60,179 nt of DNA from Chitinophagaceae bacterium (lineage in GTDB: Bacteria; Bacteroidota; Bacteroidia; Chitinophagales; UBA10324): contig CANJII010000022.1 of NCBI GenBank assembly GCA_947474435.1, forward strand, positions 1 to 60,179, given 5' to 3'. Shown one piece after another: positions 31,927 through 39,868 of this stretch (positions are counted from its first letter, which is position 1; each line of letters starts with the position of its first letter). A program made the position numbers and the translations under genes. The notes under the pieces are model-generated. The model worked only from the letters and a program-made list of their open reading frames with translations. It had not been told where the DNA came from and searched no databases.

Positions 31927-33192
31927 ATGAATAAATTTCTTTTCACATTACTCTCCATTTTCACAATTCACCTTTCATTATTCACCAACAATTCTGCCGC
32001 GCAAAACCGCCATGACAAAGCAACCTACAAAGAATACAAAGCCGGCTATTACCAAAATACAATTATGCGTGGCATCACAGATGAGTCGGAGAAAAAAGCT
32101 CCACCCAAAATGCAGAAGTATTTTAAAATGGACCCCACCGGTTTAGATGTTCCTACATCTCCTTCGCAATTCACTTCTGTGTTTCGCAACACACCAATAT
32201 CTCAGGGAAACACCGGAACCTGCTGGAGTTTTTCTACCACCTCTTATTACGAAACTGAAATCAATCGCCTGACCAAGCAAAATATTTCACTCTCGCAATT
32301 GTTTACTGTGTACTGGGAATATGTGCAGAAGGCAAAAGGATTTGTTGATACGCGCGGCGAAAGCAATTTCGATGAAGGCAGCGAAGCCAATGCGGTAAAA
32401 AGAGTATATAAAGAATATGGTTGTGTGCCTTACGAAGATTTTCCGGGATACACCGGCGATGTGAAAATTTATAATCACACAACAATGATGACCGAAATGA
32501 AAACCTATTTGAAAAGTGTGAAAGAATCAAACGCATGGAATGAAGATGAAATAATAGCAACCATTAAATCTATTTTGAATCACTACATCGGCACACCGCC
32601 AACAAGTGTTACCTGGCAGAAAAAAGTTTACACTCCAAAAGATTTTCTATCGCAAGTATGTAAGCTGAACATGGATGATTATGTTGATGTGATTTCGCTG
32701 ATGGAAAAACCATACTACACCCAAATGGAATACAAAGTGGCTGATAATTGGTGGCACGACAGCACTTACTACAATGTACCGCTCGATACTTTCATGGCAA
32801 TTATCAAGAGAGGAATTCGCGCCGGTTACAGCATAACTGTTGGTGGAGATGTGAGCGAACCCGGTTATAATATGAACAATGTGTGCATGATTCCATCATT
32901 CGATTGTCCGTCAGAATTTATTGATGAAAATGCTCGTCAATTCCGTTTCAATAACGGAACAACAACCGATGATCATGGTTTGCACCTGGTTGGTTACCTA
33001 CAAAAGAATGGAAAGGATTGGTACCTGATAAAAGATTCAGGTTCGGGTTCTCGCAATGTTGGCGAAGGCAATGAAAGTTTCGGTTACTATTATTTCGATG
33101 AAGATTATGTGAAATTGAAAATGGTTGACATCACCATTCATAAAGATGTAATTAAAAATCTCTGGAATCAGTTTCCGACTCACAGAGGATAA
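31927..33192 (+). CDS. C1 (papain/bleomycin-hydrolase-like) peptidase, secreted
   Basis: 421 residues with a signal peptide (to ~Ala25, NNSAAQ). Gln93 and Cys99 sit in SQGNTGTCWSFS, the papain-fold oxyanion and nucleophile motif. His350 is in DDHGLHLVGY. The third catalytic position, Asn in papain, reads as Asp370 in LIKDSGSG. The central ~120-330 region is longer than in papain, as in bleomycin hydrolase/aminopeptidase C. The protein should be periplasmic or lipid-free exported. A long AT-rich leader without a recognised promoter precedes it. Substrate unknown. Confidence 0.9.
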   Translation: MNKFLFTLLSIFTIHLSLFTNNSAAQNRHDKATYKEYKAGYYQNTIMRGITDESEKKAPPKMQKYFKMDPTGLDVPTSPSQFTSVFRNTPISQGNTGTCWSFSTTSYYETEINRLTKQNISLSQLFTVYWEYVQKAKGFVDTRGESNFDEGSEANAVKRVYKEYGCVPYEDFPGYTGDVKIYNHTTMMTEMKTYLKSVKESNAWNEDEIIATIKSILNHYIGTPPTSVTWQKKVYTPKDFLSQVCKLNMDDYVDVISLMEKPYYTQMEYKVADNWWHDSTYYNVPLDTFMAIIKRGIRAGYSITVGGDVSEPGYNMNNVCMIPSFDCPSEFIDENARQFRFNNGTTTDDHGLHLVGYLQKNGKDWYLIKDSGSGSRNVGEGNESFGYYYFDEDYVKLKMVDITIHKDVIKNLWNQFPTHRG

Positions 33193-33276
33193 TTATGTTT
33201 TTATTTTTTAGAACTTGAGAGTAACAGTTCTGCGTTTTAGTTTTTAGCAAAAGGTTGAAATTGATTTTTTGGCAGA

Positions 33277-35589
33277 ATGAAAAATAGCATTGAAAGAAAT
33301 GGGTTACAGATTTTAGTTGAATCGGTTCGCGTCCGCACGAACCGATTTTTTTTTATTCCAATTTCTAAATTATGTCTCAGCAGGGTTACTGTATTCAGAT
33401 GGAACACTCCGGAACTCAAGTCGGAGACCCTGCGTTTATTACCCTCCGCTTTTATAGCCTCGGTTCGTGTCCTCACGAACCGAAAAATATTCATACAATT
33501 ATTTTGCTGTTTGTTTTTAATTCAAATAAATATTTCATCAGCACAGGATTTATCAAAACAAATTGACAGTGTAAAAATTACTATCAGCAAAATGACTGCT
33601 GACACTTTAAAAGTGAAAGCACTGAACGATGCTGCATGGAATTTTAAAACCAAGGATGCAAAACTTTCAAAGCAGTTCAGCAGTGAAGCATATGCTCTTG
33701 CTCTAAAACTGAATTACCTTATCGGACAAATTGAAGCGCTTAATCTCACCGGAAATGTCAACGATAACCAAGGCGATTATCCATTGGCTTTGAGTAATTA
33801 TAGAAAAGCGCTACTGCTGGCAAATCAATCAAAAGCAAAAAAAAATATTGCAGGTTTAACTAACAACATCGGTTTGGTTTTCGAACACATTGGCGAAACC
33901 GATTCTGCGTTGGGTTACTATCAGAAAGCATTAGTGCTGAAAAAAGAAATCGGAAACAAGGCATCCATTGCATCTACACTTAACAACATTGGCAATTCAT
34001 ACTGGGTAAAAAGTAATTACAACAAAGCACTCGAGTTTCATTTTCAATCGTTAAAAATTAAGGAGGAACTTGACGATAAAAAAATGATGGCTTCGAGTTA
34101 TCACAACATCGCAAATATTTATCTCGATATGCGATTGTATAATCTTTCAATGCAATACGAAAATAAATCAATTGCCATCCGACTAACTATTGATGATTTT
34201 TGGGGGTTAGGCACCAGCTACAACACGCTTGCACTTGTTTTATACAATCAAAAAATATATGCAAATGCCATTGCTGCATTTAATAAGGCAATTGAATATT
34301 CAAGCCGTGTGGAAGACTCAGTAAACCTTGGTAAAATATTCAGTGGTTTATCATCGTGTTATTTTCAAATGAAAAATATTGAGCAGGCACTCGCATTTGA
34401 ACTCAAAGCAGTTGAGATTCAAAAATCACATTCCGATATTAAAGGACTGAGCGTTTCATATAATCATTTAGGAAAAATTTATCTTGAACAGCATAAATCA
34501 AAGGAAGCGAGGTATTGGTATCGTCAATCAGTTTTAATCGGAAAGAAACTTGATAACAAAAAAGTAATTGCCGAATCACTCGAAGGAATTTCTGATACCT
34601 ATTTGAAAGAAAACCGATTGGATAGTGCTTTGTTTTTTCTTCGAAGTTTTGCTATGATGAAAGATAGTGTGATTGACGAATCGCGCATAAAAGAAATTGC
34701 AGGTTTGCAAATCCGATACGAAACAGAAGTGAAACAACGAGAAATTGATAGTTTGAATCTGCAAAAAGCAAGAAACAACGAGCAATTGCTTTCAGCAGCT
34801 ATTGAAGTGCAGCATCGAAATTATTTATTGCTTGCTTCTTTCATTCTTCTGGTAGTTGGTGGCATTGCATTTCAACTCTACCGAAAAAATCAAAAAACAA
34901 AACTCGCTTCTGAAAAAGCAAAAGCAATTTTGGAAACTGAAATCTCAGAACGAAACAGAATAGCGCGCGACATGCACGATGAGTTGGGTTCCGGACTTTC
35001 TAAAATTTCAATTGCCCAACAATTTGCCAAAGAAAACACAGGAGATAAAAAAATCCTGAACGAAAATCTTTCCTCAATCGGAAAAGCAACAACAGAGTTA
35101 GTGGCAAGCATGGGCGATTTAATCTGGAGTTTAAATACAGATGACAACACACTTGATGCTTTACTTGCACGCATTCGCAGTCATGCAAGTGATTATCTGG
35201 ATGAAGCCGGAGTCAATTATGAAATAAATATTCAGCATGATTTACCAAATCATAATTTGTATAAAGAGTGTCGCCACCATTTGTATCTCACTTTCAAAGA
35301 AGCACTAAACAATGCGGTTAAATATTCCGGCGCTACACTTATAACAATAACCGTTACACTAAAAGAGGATGTCACTCAGAGCTTGTCGAAGAGTTTTCAA
35401 ATCACCATCACTGATAACGGAAATGGATTTTCTGTTGAAGAAAAACTGCGAAAAGGAAATGGACTTCAAAACATGCAGCAACGAATGCAAGCCATCAACG
35501 GAAAAATAAATATCAAATCGGGCATAGGAAACGGAACTTCAATTGAATTGACGGTAAGTGAAAATAAATTGTTCAATACAGCCGTTTAA
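33277..35589 (+). CDS. TPR-containing sensor histidine kinase (HisKA_3 type); start uncertain
   Basis: Only one ATG (33277) is in frame before the body, but residues 1-69 are translated repeat DNA. A normal signal peptide (KIFIQLFCCLFLIQ, ISSAQ) begins directly after, so the native start was probably lost or is non-standard near 33484. Numbered from 33277: TPR repeats (~95-440), coiled coil (~455-505), one transmembrane helix (~514-533), HisKA_3 with the phospho-acceptor His567 (RDMHDELGSGLSK), and HATPase (NNAVKYSG, DNGNGF). The partner response regulator follows 141 bases later. This kinase type is common in Bacteroidota; its signal is unknown. Confidence 0.88.
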   Translation: MKNSIERNGLQILVESVRVRTNRFFFIPISKLCLSRVTVFRWNTPELKSETLRLLPSAFIASVRVLTNRKIFIQLFCCLFLIQINISSAQDLSKQIDSVKITISKMTADTLKVKALNDAAWNFKTKDAKLSKQFSSEAYALALKLNYLIGQIEALNLTGNVNDNQGDYPLALSNYRKALLLANQSKAKKNIAGLTNNIGLVFEHIGETDSALGYYQKALVLKKEIGNKASIASTLNNIGNSYWVKSNYNKALEFHFQSLKIKEELDDKKMMASSYHNIANIYLDMRLYNLSMQYENKSIAIRLTIDDFWGLGTSYNTLALVLYNQKIYANAIAAFNKAIEYSSRVEDSVNLGKIFSGLSSCYFQMKNIEQALAFELKAVEIQKSHSDIKGLSVSYNHLGKIYLEQHKSKEARYWYRQSVLIGKKLDNKKVIAESLEGISDTYLKENRLDSALFFLRSFAMMKDSVIDESRIKEIAGLQIRYETEVKQREIDSLNLQKARNNEQLLSAAIEVQHRNYLLLASFILLVVGGIAFQLYRKNQKTKLASEKAKAILETEISERNRIARDMHDELGSGLSKISIAQQFAKENTGDKKILNENLSSIGKATTELVASMGDLIWSLNTDDNTLDALLARIRSHASDYLDEAGVNYEINIQHDLPNHNLYKECRHHLYLTFKEALNNAVKYSGATLITITVTLKEDVTQSLSKSFQITITDNGNGFSVEEKLRKGNGLQNMQQRMQAINGKINIKSGIGNGTSIELTVSENKLFNTAV
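33320..33354. terminator. Hairpin with T tract; left arm of a repeat pair
   Basis: The 10-bp perfect stem AATCGGTTCG (33320-33329)/CGAACCGATT (33338-33347) is followed by T's. It can terminate the C1 peptidase transcript. It is nearly identical to the hairpin at 33460-33483. Confidence 0.75.
33320..33483. repeat. Palindrome-bounded ~164-bp element at the 5' end of the kinase gene
   Basis: Two near-identical hairpins bound the element. Each has the stem TCGGTTCG/CGAACCGA and a loop based on GTCC, at 33322-33345 and 33460-33483. Nested inverted repeats lie between them: GCAGGGT (33380-33386) with ACCCTGC (33427-33433), and CTCCG (33407-33411) with CGGAG (33422-33426). The right hairpin ends exactly where the kinase signal peptide begins. 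It looks like a MITE-like or REP-like mobile repeat; no transposase is present. Confidence 0.6.
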
Positions 35590-35601
35590 TTTTTATCAAA
35601 T

Positions 35602-35632
35602 AAAAAACTTTGCGTCTCTGCGCCGGCGTTTA
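35602..35632. repeat. Intergenic TTTGCGTCTCTGCG-type repeat, copy 1
   Basis: Between the kinase and regulator genes there is an ACTTTGCGTCTCTGCG motif followed by GGCGTTTA. It matches the copy at 38935-38970 and is related to a third at 59117-59153. Such short GCGTCT-rich spacers recur in Bacteroidota intergenic DNA. Confidence 0.6.
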
Positions 35633-35730
35633 TCCCGATGGAGTCGGGTCGGTAATAATTTTATTTCAATTAATCAATATCACATGAAAGTGTTAGAAGC
35701 AAGAAACTCCACTACAACTAATTTCGCACC

Positions 35731-36357
35731 ATGAGTATCAACATCGCCGTTCTGGAAGATAACAACAGCATTCGTGCTTCGCTTATTTCAACTATTGACG
35801 GACACGAACATTTTTTTTGTGTGGCCGATTTCGATAATCCAAACGATGCAGTTCGCCATTTACCTGAACTGAAACCCGATGTGGTGCTCGTTGATATTCA
35901 CATGCCCGGTGGCAGTGGAATTGAAGCAATACGACAACTAAAAAAAATTATTCCGAAAACACAGTTTATCATCTTCAGTGTGTTTGAAGACAACGAAAAT
36001 ATTTTCGATGCACTCACAGCAGGAGCAACCGGCTACCTCACCAAAAGTTCTTCGCCTGAAAAAATTATTGAAGCAATACAGGATGCACACAACGGTGGCT
36101 CACCCATGAGCAGCAGCATTGCCCGGAAAGTGGTTTCAACTTTTCAAACAAAAAAAGTGACCGAAAAATCAATTGAAACTTTAACCGCACGCGAACACGA
36201 AATATTAAATCACCTCGCAAAAGGGTTTCGTTATAAAGAAATCGCAGCAAAAATGTTCATCAGCATTGAAACTGTTCGCACACATATTCGCAACATATAC
36301 GAGAAGCTGCAAGTGAGTTCACGAACCGATGCACTGAATAAAGTTTTCGGAAAATAA
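35731..36357 (+). CDS. NarL/FixJ-type response regulator
   Basis: 208 residues. The receiver domain (~1-125) has the acidic pocket Glu9-Asp10, phospho-acceptor Asp55 (VLVDIHMPGG) and Lys105 (GYLTKSS). The C-terminal LuxR-type HTH (~145-205) has LTAREHEILNHLAKGF, YKEIAAKMFISIETVRTHI and NIYEKLQV. It is the cognate regulator of the upstream TPR histidine kinase by position and family pairing. Targets cannot be read from the sequence. Confidence 0.95.
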   Translation: MSINIAVLEDNNSIRASLISTIDGHEHFFCVADFDNPNDAVRHLPELKPDVVLVDIHMPGGSGIEAIRQLKKIIPKTQFIIFSVFEDNENIFDALTAGATGYLTKSSSPEKIIEAIQDAHNGGSPMSSSIARKVVSTFQTKKVTEKSIETLTAREHEILNHLAKGFRYKEIAAKMFISIETVRTHIRNIYEKLQVSSRTDALNKVFGK

Positions 36358-36493
36358 TTTTTAAGTATGGATTATTTTAAATTTTCTGAAGCGTTAAACT
36401 TCATTTTATTTCTCTCTACTGGTATTACATAGAATAGCACTGATTACTGTTAACTGCATACTGACTACTGGCATTACTACTAAAGTGGTATTT

Positions 36494-36517
36494 CCTACCC
36501 ACATGCACCACGGTAGG
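36494..36517. other. Imperfect palindrome upstream of the propeller gene
   Basis: CCTACC (36494-36499) and GGTAGG (36512-36517) enclose a loop containing CACATGCACC. The same 10-mer is in the loop region of the palindrome at 38382-38403 beyond the same gene. Just upstream is ACTG-rich low-complexity DNA (about 36440-36470). Confidence 0.5.
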
Positions 36518-36545
36518 TTTGCTCCCACAAAAAACTTACAGTGTC

Positions 36546-38276
36546 ATGAAAAACAAATTACTACTCACGCTGCTTTGCTTCCTCACAGTTGGAACCATGC
36601 AGATTTCAGCTCAGAACTTCGAGCAGGTTTACAAAGTTTCATTCCCCTTCAAACCCGGCAACAAAACCTCCAGCGACGACCGTAACTTCGTTTACGGTGC
36701 CTGCGAAAAATCACTTGCCATGCTCGATGGCAACACCGGCAAATTGCTTTGGCAATATGATATTCTTAAATCAACCGGAAAAAAAGTAATGGACTACAAC
36801 CGCTATGTCCGTCAGTTGAACATTGCTTTTCTCTATTCCAAGAGCAACAAAAAAGAACCTTCACTAAAAGTTTGTATTGATGGTGTAACAGGTATGGAAC
36901 TATGGCGCACCACCGAACTCGGTACCGAATATGAATTTCAGGATGGAATAAAATACGGAATGGATTACGACAAAAAATATTTCACAGTTACAGTGAACGA
37001 TGTGGATATGGATGTAGATGTTATGACAGGAAAAATTCTGAGCAAGGATGCTATTGCTGCTATTAAAACAAAAACAAAGCAACCACTCGACCTCAACAAT
37101 TTATTTGGCATGGGATACCGGTATGCTGATATTGCTTTCGATGATGCGCACACCATGATGCTCTCACTTGATTACAAAGGAATCACTAATATGAAAAAAA
37201 TTCGCTTGTCTGCTTCTGATTATAACACCGGAGCTGATAAATGGGAAGTCAATTTCGACGGAACTGTTATTTCTCCTATCTGTAAAGATTATCTCGATGG
37301 ATTAATTTATGATGATGATATGATTGGAATGGAAGTGAATGGCAATTATGCTTTTGTTATTTACGAAGGCATTGCATGCATTGATATCCGCACTGGTAAA
37401 TTGGTTTGGGAAAAGAAACTGGATAATGCAGATGCCTCGGCAGGGCTGCGCGCAAAACAAGTGCTTGGAATATCTGCCGTGCCGTTAATTACAAAGGATG
37501 CTGTTTATATTGTTGACTTAAGCAGTGGCGAAAACAACCTGAAAAAAATTGACATTGCTACAGGTAATGTTATCTGGAAATCAGATAAAATAGATAATGA
37601 TTCTCGCGTTCCTCAGTTGGAACTTTCAGGAAATGTTTTACTTGCTCGTTTTGGTGGTTTGCTGGAAGAACAGATTTATGTTCCGGGTACAAGTGGAAAT
37701 CCGGATGTATATAAAAGAAAATTTGATTGGGCAGGTGATGGTGGTGTGAGAGGTTACGATGCAGCAACGGGAAAAATTATATGGGATACCAAATCAATTC
37801 TGAAGAGTGATAAGTTCGACCGCACAACTGCTATGATTGTTGAAGGTGCGAATGTTTATTTCAGCAGCGATAATATTTTTTACAAGGTGGATGTTGCCAC
37901 CGGTAAAGCCGCTTACACAATTGATGTAGCTCTTTTCAAAGTTGGAAAGATGGCAGGATTTGTACTTTATAAAAACAAACTCATCATCTCGTGCGACGAA
38001 GGCATAGCAGCCCTCGATCCTTCAAATGGAAATAAATTTTATGCAACCAACACTGGAAATAATTATGGCAACGAATTAGTAAGCAATACTAATGTTCTGG
38101 TATGGACCGGCTCTAAAGAAGATGACTGGGATGCCTTTGCATTAGTTGACATAAACACCGGAACAATACTCGGGAAAATGAAAAGTACCCCCTACCCATA
38201 CTTCGATGAATCAGGAAACTCATTCATCAAATTCGATGGCGATGAAGTGATGCGCTTTAAAGCAGCAGGGAAATAA
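36546..38276 (+). CDS. PQQ-binding-like beta-propeller repeat protein, secreted
   Basis: 576 residues from the ATG at 36546, the start that gives a proper signal peptide (MKNKLLLTLLCFLTVG, ISAQ); an upstream ATG at 36519 would place nine residues before it. The body has repeated PQQ-like blades: AMLDGNTGKLLWQYD, CIDIRTGKLVWEKKL, KIDIATGNVIWKSD, GYDAATGKIIWDT, KVDVATGKAAYT and VDINTGTILGK. There is no T9SS sorting tail, so it is periplasmic or outer-membrane associated. BamB-like scaffolding or sugar binding are possible. Function unassigned. Confidence 0.88.
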   Translation: MKNKLLLTLLCFLTVGTMQISAQNFEQVYKVSFPFKPGNKTSSDDRNFVYGACEKSLAMLDGNTGKLLWQYDILKSTGKKVMDYNRYVRQLNIAFLYSKSNKKEPSLKVCIDGVTGMELWRTTELGTEYEFQDGIKYGMDYDKKYFTVTVNDVDMDVDVMTGKILSKDAIAAIKTKTKQPLDLNNLFGMGYRYADIAFDDAHTMMLSLDYKGITNMKKIRLSASDYNTGADKWEVNFDGTVISPICKDYLDGLIYDDDMIGMEVNGNYAFVIYEGIACIDIRTGKLVWEKKLDNADASAGLRAKQVLGISAVPLITKDAVYIVDLSSGENNLKKIDIATGNVIWKSDKIDNDSRVPQLELSGNVLLARFGGLLEEQIYVPGTSGNPDVYKRKFDWAGDGGVRGYDAATGKIIWDTKSILKSDKFDRTTAMIVEGANVYFSSDNIFYKVDVATGKAAYTIDVALFKVGKMAGFVLYKNKLIISCDEGIAALDPSNGNKFYATNTGNNYGNELVSNTNVLVWTGSKEDDWDAFALVDINTGTILGKMKSTPYPYFDESGNSFIKFDGDEVMRFKAAGK

Positions 38277-38381
38277 ATTTGAATCAATTACAGTTGAAAA
38301 GATCTGTTCATTGAAGTTGACTAAACTCAACTGATAAAAGAAAAATGACTGACACTGTAAATTCATTCATTCATGATGCAG

Positions 38382-38403
38382 CTCCGGTGCACATGCACCG
38401 GAG
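38382..38403. terminator. Perfect palindrome after the propeller gene
   Basis: CTCCGGTGCA (38382-38391) and TGCACCGGAG (38394-38403) are exact complements around CA. There is only a weak T stretch after it, so a terminator or a protein-binding palindrome are both possible. Confidence 0.55.
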
Positions 38404-38441
38404 TTCTTCATGCTTTTAAATATTCATAAAATAACTTCATC

Positions 38442-38933
38442 ATGAAAAAGATAAATCAACTGTTACACTTCACAATCATTTTATCTTTTGCATTAATGAT
38501 TGCATCCTGCAACAAAGACAAAGAATTTAAAAACTACTATGGCAAAAGCGGCATCTGGGAAATAAATGAATTAAAAGTTGATTACTTAAGTGATAGCACA
38601 GGAGTGGTTATTGACTCTTCAAAAACATACAGCAACTGCGGCATGTTTATTTTTTATAATTCCGATATTGGTGCATTGCGCCAGGCTTTTCTAGGTCAGG
38701 TTGGAATAACAACTTACACCGAAAATCATTTGGGCATTGCGTGGTATCCTGAAAATGGGAAAATGAATTTCACACTTAGTACTGCAACAACACCAATCAG
38801 AACTTACACCATCAGTGGAAAAGGCACAACGCAAACATGGACTTACACCGGAAGAAATAATTCAATGCTTCCCGGCAATACGCAATTTGTAAATGAAACC
38901 ATAACTGTTAACAGAATTTCTACGAAAAAATAA
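38442..38933 (+). CDS. Small lipoprotein, function unknown
   Basis: 163 residues. The lipobox LMIASC puts the lipidated Cys at residue 23, followed by charged NKDKE. The body (IWEINELKVDYLSD, GMFIFYN, MNFTLSTATT, TWTYTGRN) resembles the lipocalin-like small lipoproteins frequent in Bacteroidota but no named family is certain. It begins 39 bases after the palindrome at 38382-38403, and 58 bases separate it from the outer-membrane barrel gene. Confidence 0.78.
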   Translation: MKKINQLLHFTIILSFALMIASCNKDKEFKNYYGKSGIWEINELKVDYLSDSTGVVIDSSKTYSNCGMFIFYNSDIGALRQAFLGQVGITTYTENHLGIAWYPENGKMNFTLSTATTPIRTYTISGKGTTQTWTYTGRNNSMLPGNTQFVNETITVNRISTKK

Positions 38934-38934
38934 A

Positions 38935-38970
38935 TAAAAAACTCTGCGTCTCTGCACCTCTGCGTTTAAG
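38935..38970. repeat. Intergenic CTCTGCGTCTCTGC-type repeat, copy 2
   Basis: CTCTGCGTCTCTGCACCTCTGCGTTTAAG, written here in parts: CTCTGCGTC, TCTGCACC, TCTGCGTTTAAG. It shares the AAAAACT..TGCGTCTCTGC core with the copy at 35602-35632. Confidence 0.6.
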
Positions 38971-38991
38971 ACTCCCTCTAAAAACTCCTTT

Positions 38992-39702
38992 ATGAAAAAA
39001 ATAATCTTCATTTTATTTCTATCATTCATTTCATATTCATCTGTACAAGCACAGGGATATTTTGAAATGGGTTATCGTTTCGGTCATTTGAAATGCGATA
39101 ACCTGAACAGAAGTGTTTATGTCTATAACTACACGCGCAAGTGGCTTGATACAAAAATGGATTATTTCGGAAATCATGGCAAAGGAATTTCAGTTGCGTA
39201 TGGTCAGCAGTTTGATTTGTTCGGATGGGAAATGGGCTTTTCCAACTTTCATGAAAAACACATTGCTCATGGACTTGAACCAACAACGGGGCAAGTTGCT
39301 TATCGTCAAATCAGTTATTTTAATTATGGTTTGTACTTAGGAATTCCGGTTCGGCTCATTAATAAAGAAAATCTGGAAATAAATTTTGCTCCATCATTTG
39401 ATATGTCATTTGATAATATCAATCTTGAATACACGCATGATGCTGCACTGAAAACTTTTGATGAAAGTGTGAAAGCAACTTCAGAAGGAAAGTTGGGTGC
39501 AACAATGGCACTTGCCATAAAATTATTTCCTGTCAGGTGGTTTGGAATTGATTTGAAACCATTTGCTTCATTCAACTTTCACAAGTTAGATGTGGAAGGA
39601 GTTCAATATGAATTACAAGGAGCATCGGCTGCTGTTTTACCAGATTCTTTTTTCTCTTATGGTTTAAATCTCAATGTCACTTTTGCGCACAGGGATTATT
39701 AA
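38992..39702 (+). CDS. Outer-membrane beta-barrel-like protein
   Basis: 236 residues with a signal peptide (cleavage near VQAQG). Alternating aromatic-rich strands follow (GYFEMGYRFGH, GISVAYGQQFDLFGWEMGF, YFNYGLYLGIPVRL, SYGLNLNVTFAHRDY), ending in an aromatic residue as in outer-membrane barrels. The size fits an 8-10 strand porin-like or OmpA-like barrel. It probably shares a transcript with the lipoprotein gene upstream. No specific function is visible. Confidence 0.72.
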   Translation: MKKIIFILFLSFISYSSVQAQGYFEMGYRFGHLKCDNLNRSVYVYNYTRKWLDTKMDYFGNHGKGISVAYGQQFDLFGWEMGFSNFHEKHIAHGLEPTTGQVAYRQISYFNYGLYLGIPVRLINKENLEINFAPSFDMSFDNINLEYTHDAALKTFDESVKATSEGKLGATMALAIKLFPVRWFGIDLKPFASFNFHKLDVEGVQYELQGASAAVLPDSFFSYGLNLNVTFAHRDY

Positions 39703-39868
39703 TATAAATATTTTTAAAAGCTGATAACCTTAATTATTTAAAACTTCAATCCAAATTATTTCTGGTTTTTGGGAAGTATTGGAAAATTATTTATTTCCTA
39801 ACATAAACACTTTCTTTATTAGGAAGTTTTTTTTCTTTTCTTTATACCCTTCAAAAAAAAATGATTTC

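Follow-up and report, generated by a model that had tools for sequence, protein, structure and literature searches.

The locus raises the question of how a sensor kinase is translated when palindromic repeats stand between its first start codon and its signal peptide, and what these repeats are. The window, the whole stretch of 60,179 nucleotides analysed here (contig CANJII010000022.1 of a Chitinophagaceae bacterium), contains on the + strand the open frame of a TPR histidine kinase (33277-35589; Pfam TPR_12, HisKA_3 and HATPase_c), which has 770 residues if ATG 33277 is the start. It is preceded by a gene for a C1-type peptidase of 421 residues (31927-33192, + strand; Pfam Peptidase_C1_2, 2e-13), which has an ortholog at G005:C37, and followed by a NarL/LuxR-type response regulator (35731-36357, + strand; Pfam Response_reg and GerE), its likely partner, which is kept beside the kinase in G002. 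Here G000 denotes the window's own genome, G001-G005 are congeners, G018 is a further genome of the comparison, and L numbers are fetched loci. Between ATG 33277 and the remaining part of the signal peptide (KIFIQLFCCLFLIQINISSAQ, 33484-33546, + strand) a hairpin A, a palindrome B and again A follow each other. The left A copy (33322-33345, + strand) is followed by nine T, the B copy (33373-33437) reads AAACGCAGGGT..ACCCTGCTGAGACA on the minus strand, and the right A copy (33457-33485, + strand) is complete (GCCTCGG...CCGAAA) and abuts the signal peptide. The initial annotation had correctly seen two near-identical hairpins with a nested inverted repeat between them (33322-33345 and 33460-33483 are 92% identical and 138 bp apart). 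We propose, with a probability of roughly 0.7, that three REP-like insertions of two families have accumulated at the 5' end of the kinase gene, the most likely outcome being that the frame has been kept open and that the start is now ATG 33277.

In the window alone the hairpins would not be conspicuous, because a looser 18-mer finds two of them and 15 of 100 shuffles equal that, which is not beyond chance. Their significance therefore comes from the genome scale. The pattern that the initial annotation had proposed to look for (TCGGTTCG-N8-CGAACCGA, at most one mismatch) has 13 matches in the genome of 3.52 Mb compared to none for the reversed control, and the inner 20-mer GGTTCGTG-N4-CACGAACC is found at 19 places versus one with up to two mismatches and at 29 versus five with up to three, the weakest of which include chance matches. 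Family A (GCCTCGGTTCGTGTCCYCACGAACCGAAA) thus has about 19 copies in G000. It was found in all six genus genomes compared and in 37 of the 298 genomes of the order, for which the reversed pattern gave three places in one genome. Sixteen aligned copies, a selection of those found, have the consensus GCCTCGGTTCGTGTCCNCACGAACCGAAA, which is free of stop codons in all three forward frames. The GCC head is present in 15 and the GAAA tail in 14 of these; the left window copy has neither, and C3:120657 lacks the tail. The foot is GCCTC/GAGGC, and a guide tetranucleotide of the GTAG type is absent. At some sites a second, inverted hairpin of the CGGCGCGTGTCCTCACGCGCCG type extends the repeat to a unit of about 60 bp, for example at C26:40996-41046 and C3:110571-110621. 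A REPIN consists of two REPs in inverted orientation, and these two sites have such inverted pairs, while both window copies, judged by their loops, point the same way.

We consider it very probable that A represents REP-like insertions of a RAYT-linked family, because in G004 it flanks a RAYT-like gene. At G004:C41 (L115), copies at 1695 and 1884 (+) and at 2512 (-) are inverted around an ORF at 1952-2503, the right copy being only a few bases past the stop codon, and the right window copy differs from these flanking copies in one loop base. The ORF encodes 183 residues with the motifs MPNHIHL, WQRDP, and YIHNNP. RAYT subclass 2.6 of the Bacteroidetes is described with NH[LIV]H, WQ, YIH[QN]NP, about 179 residues and an SS motif (PMC6006769, table of subclasses), and by motif the ORF can be assigned to it with all these features (NHIH, WQR, YIHNNP, 183 residues, SSA at position 161). 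At L139 the sequence is THLH. Five A-type ORFs match Pfam Y1_Tnp with E-values of 0.0012-0.069, all below the Pfam cut-off. A RAYT-type ORF stands beside A-like copies in 5 of 39 scanned loci, G004 included, nearly all of these loci having been fetched around A copies. Fourteen further loci were inspected at RAYT relatives, two of which, in G000 and G005, are decayed; nine have GTGTCNNCAC-core hairpins (counted if at least three pairs extend beyond the core), most with lineage-specific stems, and five have none. A close RAYT (E <= 1e-48, a cut picked after viewing the list) is encoded by 27 of the 298 genomes, and 16 of these 27 also have A, compared to 37 of 298 overall, while 11 have no A by the search pattern. 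The corresponding hypergeometric P of 6e-10 by genome, or 2e-9 with the window's genus removed, is only indicative since the genomes are related. In G147 (C2:1409049-1409826, L137) a RAYT-like gene is directly preceded by ten A-like hairpins, whose stem is GGTTGGTG or resembles it closely and many of which are 57 bp apart.

In G000 itself, an assembly of 98 pieces, the best of four matches to the A-type RAYT (C14:37622-38008) is a decayed relative without the HxH motif, with 36% identity across residues 47-175; no such hairpin was found beside it. Nor was a RAYT adjoining A found in G000 at the seven Y1_Tnp places, around which six loci were fetched, the only A-like match in these six being one weak A2-like match near C83. 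Because the best RAYT match is decayed, A is probably not mobile through its own RAYT in G000. In G005 a decayed A-type RAYT stands between two A copies just upstream of the peptidase ortholog (C37:12074-12398; L117 and L189); in the window the A copies are found just downstream of the peptidase gene.

The nested inverted repeat between the window hairpins, which is real as initially annotated, is a copy of the second dispersed family, B. Its long form occurs at three further places of G000 (C2, C13, and C26), and elsewhere there is a short form, which lacks the inner arm. Two RAYT-like genes of G000, at C11 and C86, have B-type copies on their flanks, and the Pfam match of these genes is again below the cut-off. 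The flanking copies have the same stem and tail as the window B but a different loop, and the assignment of B to a RAYT-linked REP-like family, although still probable, is therefore somewhat weaker than that of A. Just 3' of the RAYT-like gene at C86, three units of the B tail (ACCCTGCTGGGACA) follow each other every 19 bp (2505-2556, L087), and a fourth is found at 2619. At G000:C83 (L051, 987-1304 and 2171-2785) two copies of another repeat, which reads MSAGKPA...MQRR, flank an IS200-like Y1 gene and perhaps represent a third REP family. A further repeat-like sequence of the TTCGACAAGCTC..GTGACA type, which we take to be a spread repeat, was seen in a signal-peptide region (L105, 238-1734) and near a B copy (flank of L038).

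Copies of A are not restricted to intergenic DNA. In the fetched loci of G000, with the window left out and up to five mismatches allowed, 13 of 22 A-type hairpins are located within ORFs of at least 90 residues and nine outside. ORFs are no evidence of genes, and therefore species were compared. A hydrophobic protein of 507-546 residues (no Pfam match over the cut-off) contains one A hairpin in G004, two in G002, three in G005, and four in G000, the forms being 79-84% identical to that of G004. One A site is common to all four species, though degenerate in G002, and the other sites are empty in G004. The adenine deaminase has 28 additional residues in G000 and 23 in G005, placed between its two Pfam domains, and none in G001-G004 and G018, as judged from ten loci, of which L205 is a partial ORF and L209, L210, and L214 were missed by the motif and are uncounted. 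Here, as at other sites, the insert is an inverted hairpin pair (GCCTCGG...AAATTTTCG..CGCG...CCGAGGC). The closest parallel to the kinase is a secreted-type protein of G004 (C8), which starts with MKFLRSLFFL, continues with an in-frame A unit and then with EKILNSLFFLFIISFFCSPLFAQ. In five congeners the ATG is conserved and the signal peptide uninterrupted (two begin with MKILKSLFFLF, the other three similarly). In the G000 ortholog A stands upstream of the ATG instead. Start codon and frame were kept in G004. The site is also the only one with a duplicated flank (MKFLRSLFFL / EKILNSLFFL), which is too little for a rule of target-site duplication. The species comparison shows that A has entered these three proteins in frame, in the manner of Rickettsia palindromic elements (RPEs). 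Further frames containing A (a metallo-beta-lactamase-like protein at C72, a sulfatase-like one at C3:110571, a GWxTD protein at C7, and a VWA protein at C13) are not counted here, because the comparison covered other proteins. For B, one copy (C26:10509-10575, L023) reads in frame through a diaminopimelate-decarboxylase-like protein and another (C26:43841-43871, L043) through the C-terminal part of a 544-codon frame resembling a secreted-protein sorting domain, so that B may enter proteins in frame like A. In a more distant genome, an A-like hairpin was observed in an mnmE frame within the match to the MnmE helical domain (G246:C163, L147, 24-1445).

The closest relative of the kinase found is a 701-residue ortholog in G002 (L058/L185; JAHEZG010000099.1), which is 78-79% identical, free of the repeat and starts with MNFPEIKINNLFLVV. 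A scan of genome contigs for orthologs gave three loci, of which L185 is close and the other two are remote. The part of the window frame supported by this ortholog begins near 33484. From the methionine to AQ, the signal peptide has 28 residues in G002 and 21 are left in the window, so that about seven including the methionine are missing beside the repeat (manual count). The comparison with orthologs proposed for finding the native start yielded this repeat-free form but did not locate the ancestral start, since the 5' DNA of the window and that of G002 align without clear homology on the left side of the composite. DNA homology to G005 ends at 33195, just past the peptidase gene, homology to G002 starts at 33541, and in G005 the peptidase gene is directly followed by two genes (PhoU-like and phosphate-transporter-like, named by reading the sequence) whose window counterparts stand after 39779. 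The block between these neighbours, 33193-39779 with the kinase, the response regulator and three further ORFs, is absent there. The A-B-A cluster therefore lies on a synteny breakpoint, which belongs to a block of some 6.5 kb.

Several explanations without REP insertions were considered. The composite could be a single MITE or an IS remnant with the two hairpins as its terminal inverted repeats, a view suggested by the near-identical palindromes about 140 bp apart and by one other pair in G000, at C72, with a spacing of 137 bp. However, the C72 pair is part of an ORF that matches the metallo-beta-lactamase fold, and it encloses a different sequence. Each family has dispersed copies of its own, and what lies inside the composite is a family distinct from A, linked to RAYTs of its own. 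The complete composite was seen once among the 45 matches listed, where no other place in G000 spans more than 69 of its 201 bases. Such a unit is very improbable, and because no second full-length copy bounded by terminal inverted repeats occurs in G000 among these matches we rejected it. Of the MITE/REP-like element in the initial annotation, the mobile REP-like repeat is thus retained, as two A copies around a B copy and not as one MITE. We also regard it as quite improbable that the hairpins are ordinary regulatory structures of no mobile origin, which would serve the upstream gene as terminator and the kinase as attenuator. The left hairpin (33319-33348) does have a G+C-rich stem and a T tail and is predicted to be terminator-like, in agreement with the earlier suggestion, and the 264-nt leader folds strongly (z -5.6; none of 200 shuffles as good). 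The whole window gave no Rfam match at gathering scores, and a search for TAnnTTTG, a Bacteroidetes promoter motif, gave no match. Against a purely regulatory role, on the + strand the right copy carries an A tail, conservation extends past the stem to the head (15/16 GCC) and the tail (14/16 GAAA), and A copies are found inside proteins and flanking RAYT genes. A native origin of the 69-residue extension, as coding sequence belonging to this kinase subfamily, has practically no likelihood, although the frame is open: the closest ortholog, 79% identical, does not have it, and dispersed repeats, present elsewhere in the genome, make up more than half of it.

The serious competitor to translation from ATG 33277 is that the insertion severed the kinase from its start, so that the gene is either silent or uses a non-AUG start (CTG 33430 or ATA/ATT) or leaderless or reinitiated translation beside the signal peptide. 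We consider this possible but would not expect it. The first ATG of the frame is at 33277, four codons past an in-frame stop, and from there to the signal peptide the frame contains no further ATG and no GTG or TTG, as initially annotated; the leader holds one CTG (33430) and several ATT/ATA codons, and a TTG (33511) falls inside the signal peptide. Loss of the start would agree with this gap and with the missing residues at the signal peptide, methionine included. In addition, the left hairpin with its nine T may stop transcripts carrying ATG 33277, which speaks against a long transcript arriving from upstream, and many N-terminal REPs are described as extragenic and often as annotation artefacts (PMC3733652, section on intragenic repeats). 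On the other side, the rest of the frame, 700 codons, is intact with 78-79% identity to G002, the response regulator has been retained, ATG 33277 opens the same frame, and in the signal-peptide case of G004 the ATG has been retained. The open frame of 770 codons is itself weak evidence for translation: the leader is open by chance in 10% of the trials with fixed repeats and shuffled spacers, and in 2% if everything is shuffled. Weighing these points, we give translation from ATG 33277 with a REP-encoded N-terminus close to an even chance, and hold it to be somewhat likelier than loss of the start. The "false" N-terminus of the initial annotation is not the default reading of the kinase extension, because in G004 the element stands, in frame, after an ATG that five orthologs conserve and before the remainder of the signal peptide.

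Under the reading that we prefer, insertion of REPs with translation from ATG 33277, A goes with a RAYT of the Bacteroidota type, a single-strand Y1 transposase, and B with a second RAYT-like type. The repeats would have been copied in as single-stranded hairpins, presumably by the activity of these RAYTs. ATG 33277 would serve as start 207 nt before the signal peptide, with the frame kept, and the extension of MKNSIERNGLQILVE, SVRVRTNR... and ...SVRVLTNRK would be translated. The basic stretch VRVLTNRK might then act as the n-region of the kinase signal peptide.

Several known systems resemble these repeats in part. The A-type RAYT corresponds to RAYT/TnpA-REP subclass 2.6 (RAYT group 5) in its motifs, its length of about 180 residues, the serine motif past the tyrosine motif, a REP foot without GT[AG]G, and dispersed copies, a likeness drawn from RAYT motifs and the description given there and not from REP sequences (PMC6006769, subclass descriptions). 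REPs of this subclass are called 'atypical', being without GT[AG]G, and the HuH-Y distance has a median of 82, compared to 76 for the A-type RAYT and 84 for the B-adjoining genes (same source, summary values). The decay of the best match to the cognate RAYT in G000 is a difference from these systems. RPEs are, like A, palindromes that occur in frame within a variety of unrelated proteins, N-termini included (Ogata 2000, 2002, as cited in PMC10969869 and PMC3733652). They are reported to carry the CGTC tag or, in PMC10969869, to be about 150 bp long, whereas A has 29 bp (about 60 bp as a pair), ends with GCC and shows linkage to a RAYT. GTAG- and CGTC-tagged REPs, the latter also reported from Bacteroidetes, share with A and B that they are short palindromes, form dimers and occur in some ORFs, with N-terminal cases discussed (PMC3733652, survey sections), but the ends of A and B carry neither tag. 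For CGTC-tagged repeats, including some RPEs, the same sections mention only few and fortuitous associations with transposase genes. The inverted pairs of A in the adenine deaminase and at other sites resemble REPINs (PMC3116915), but their two halves have different stems, and the window copies have the same direction. Di Nocera and colleagues have described intragenic REPs, with N-terminal cases often being annotation errors, and proteins of R. conorii with an N-terminal RPE-1 are expressed (PMC3733652, the passages concerned). Because of these descriptions, the kind of phenomenon is already known. The RepRanger paper tabulates REPs in Bacteroidota (PMC12306157), and in the open-access literature searched we did not find family A, its use in proteins of Chitinophagales or the series of species.

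For the annotation of these genomes this means that gene starts beside such repeats cannot be judged by sequence alone. If ATG 33277 is used, mobile DNA would encode part of the export signal of this sensor kinase. As a tentative generalisation, a RAYT-linked REP may act in this genus of Chitinophagales as a protein-coding palindrome, which enters in frame, varies in copy number between sister species and, at signal peptides, provides a new basic n-region with the old start far upstream. The habit of coding for protein is here linked to a RAYT, and the congeners show the empty and the filled state of the adenine deaminase as well as one to four copies in another gene. Therefore, the tolerance of bacteria for mobile DNA inside their proteins would become directly testable in this genus.
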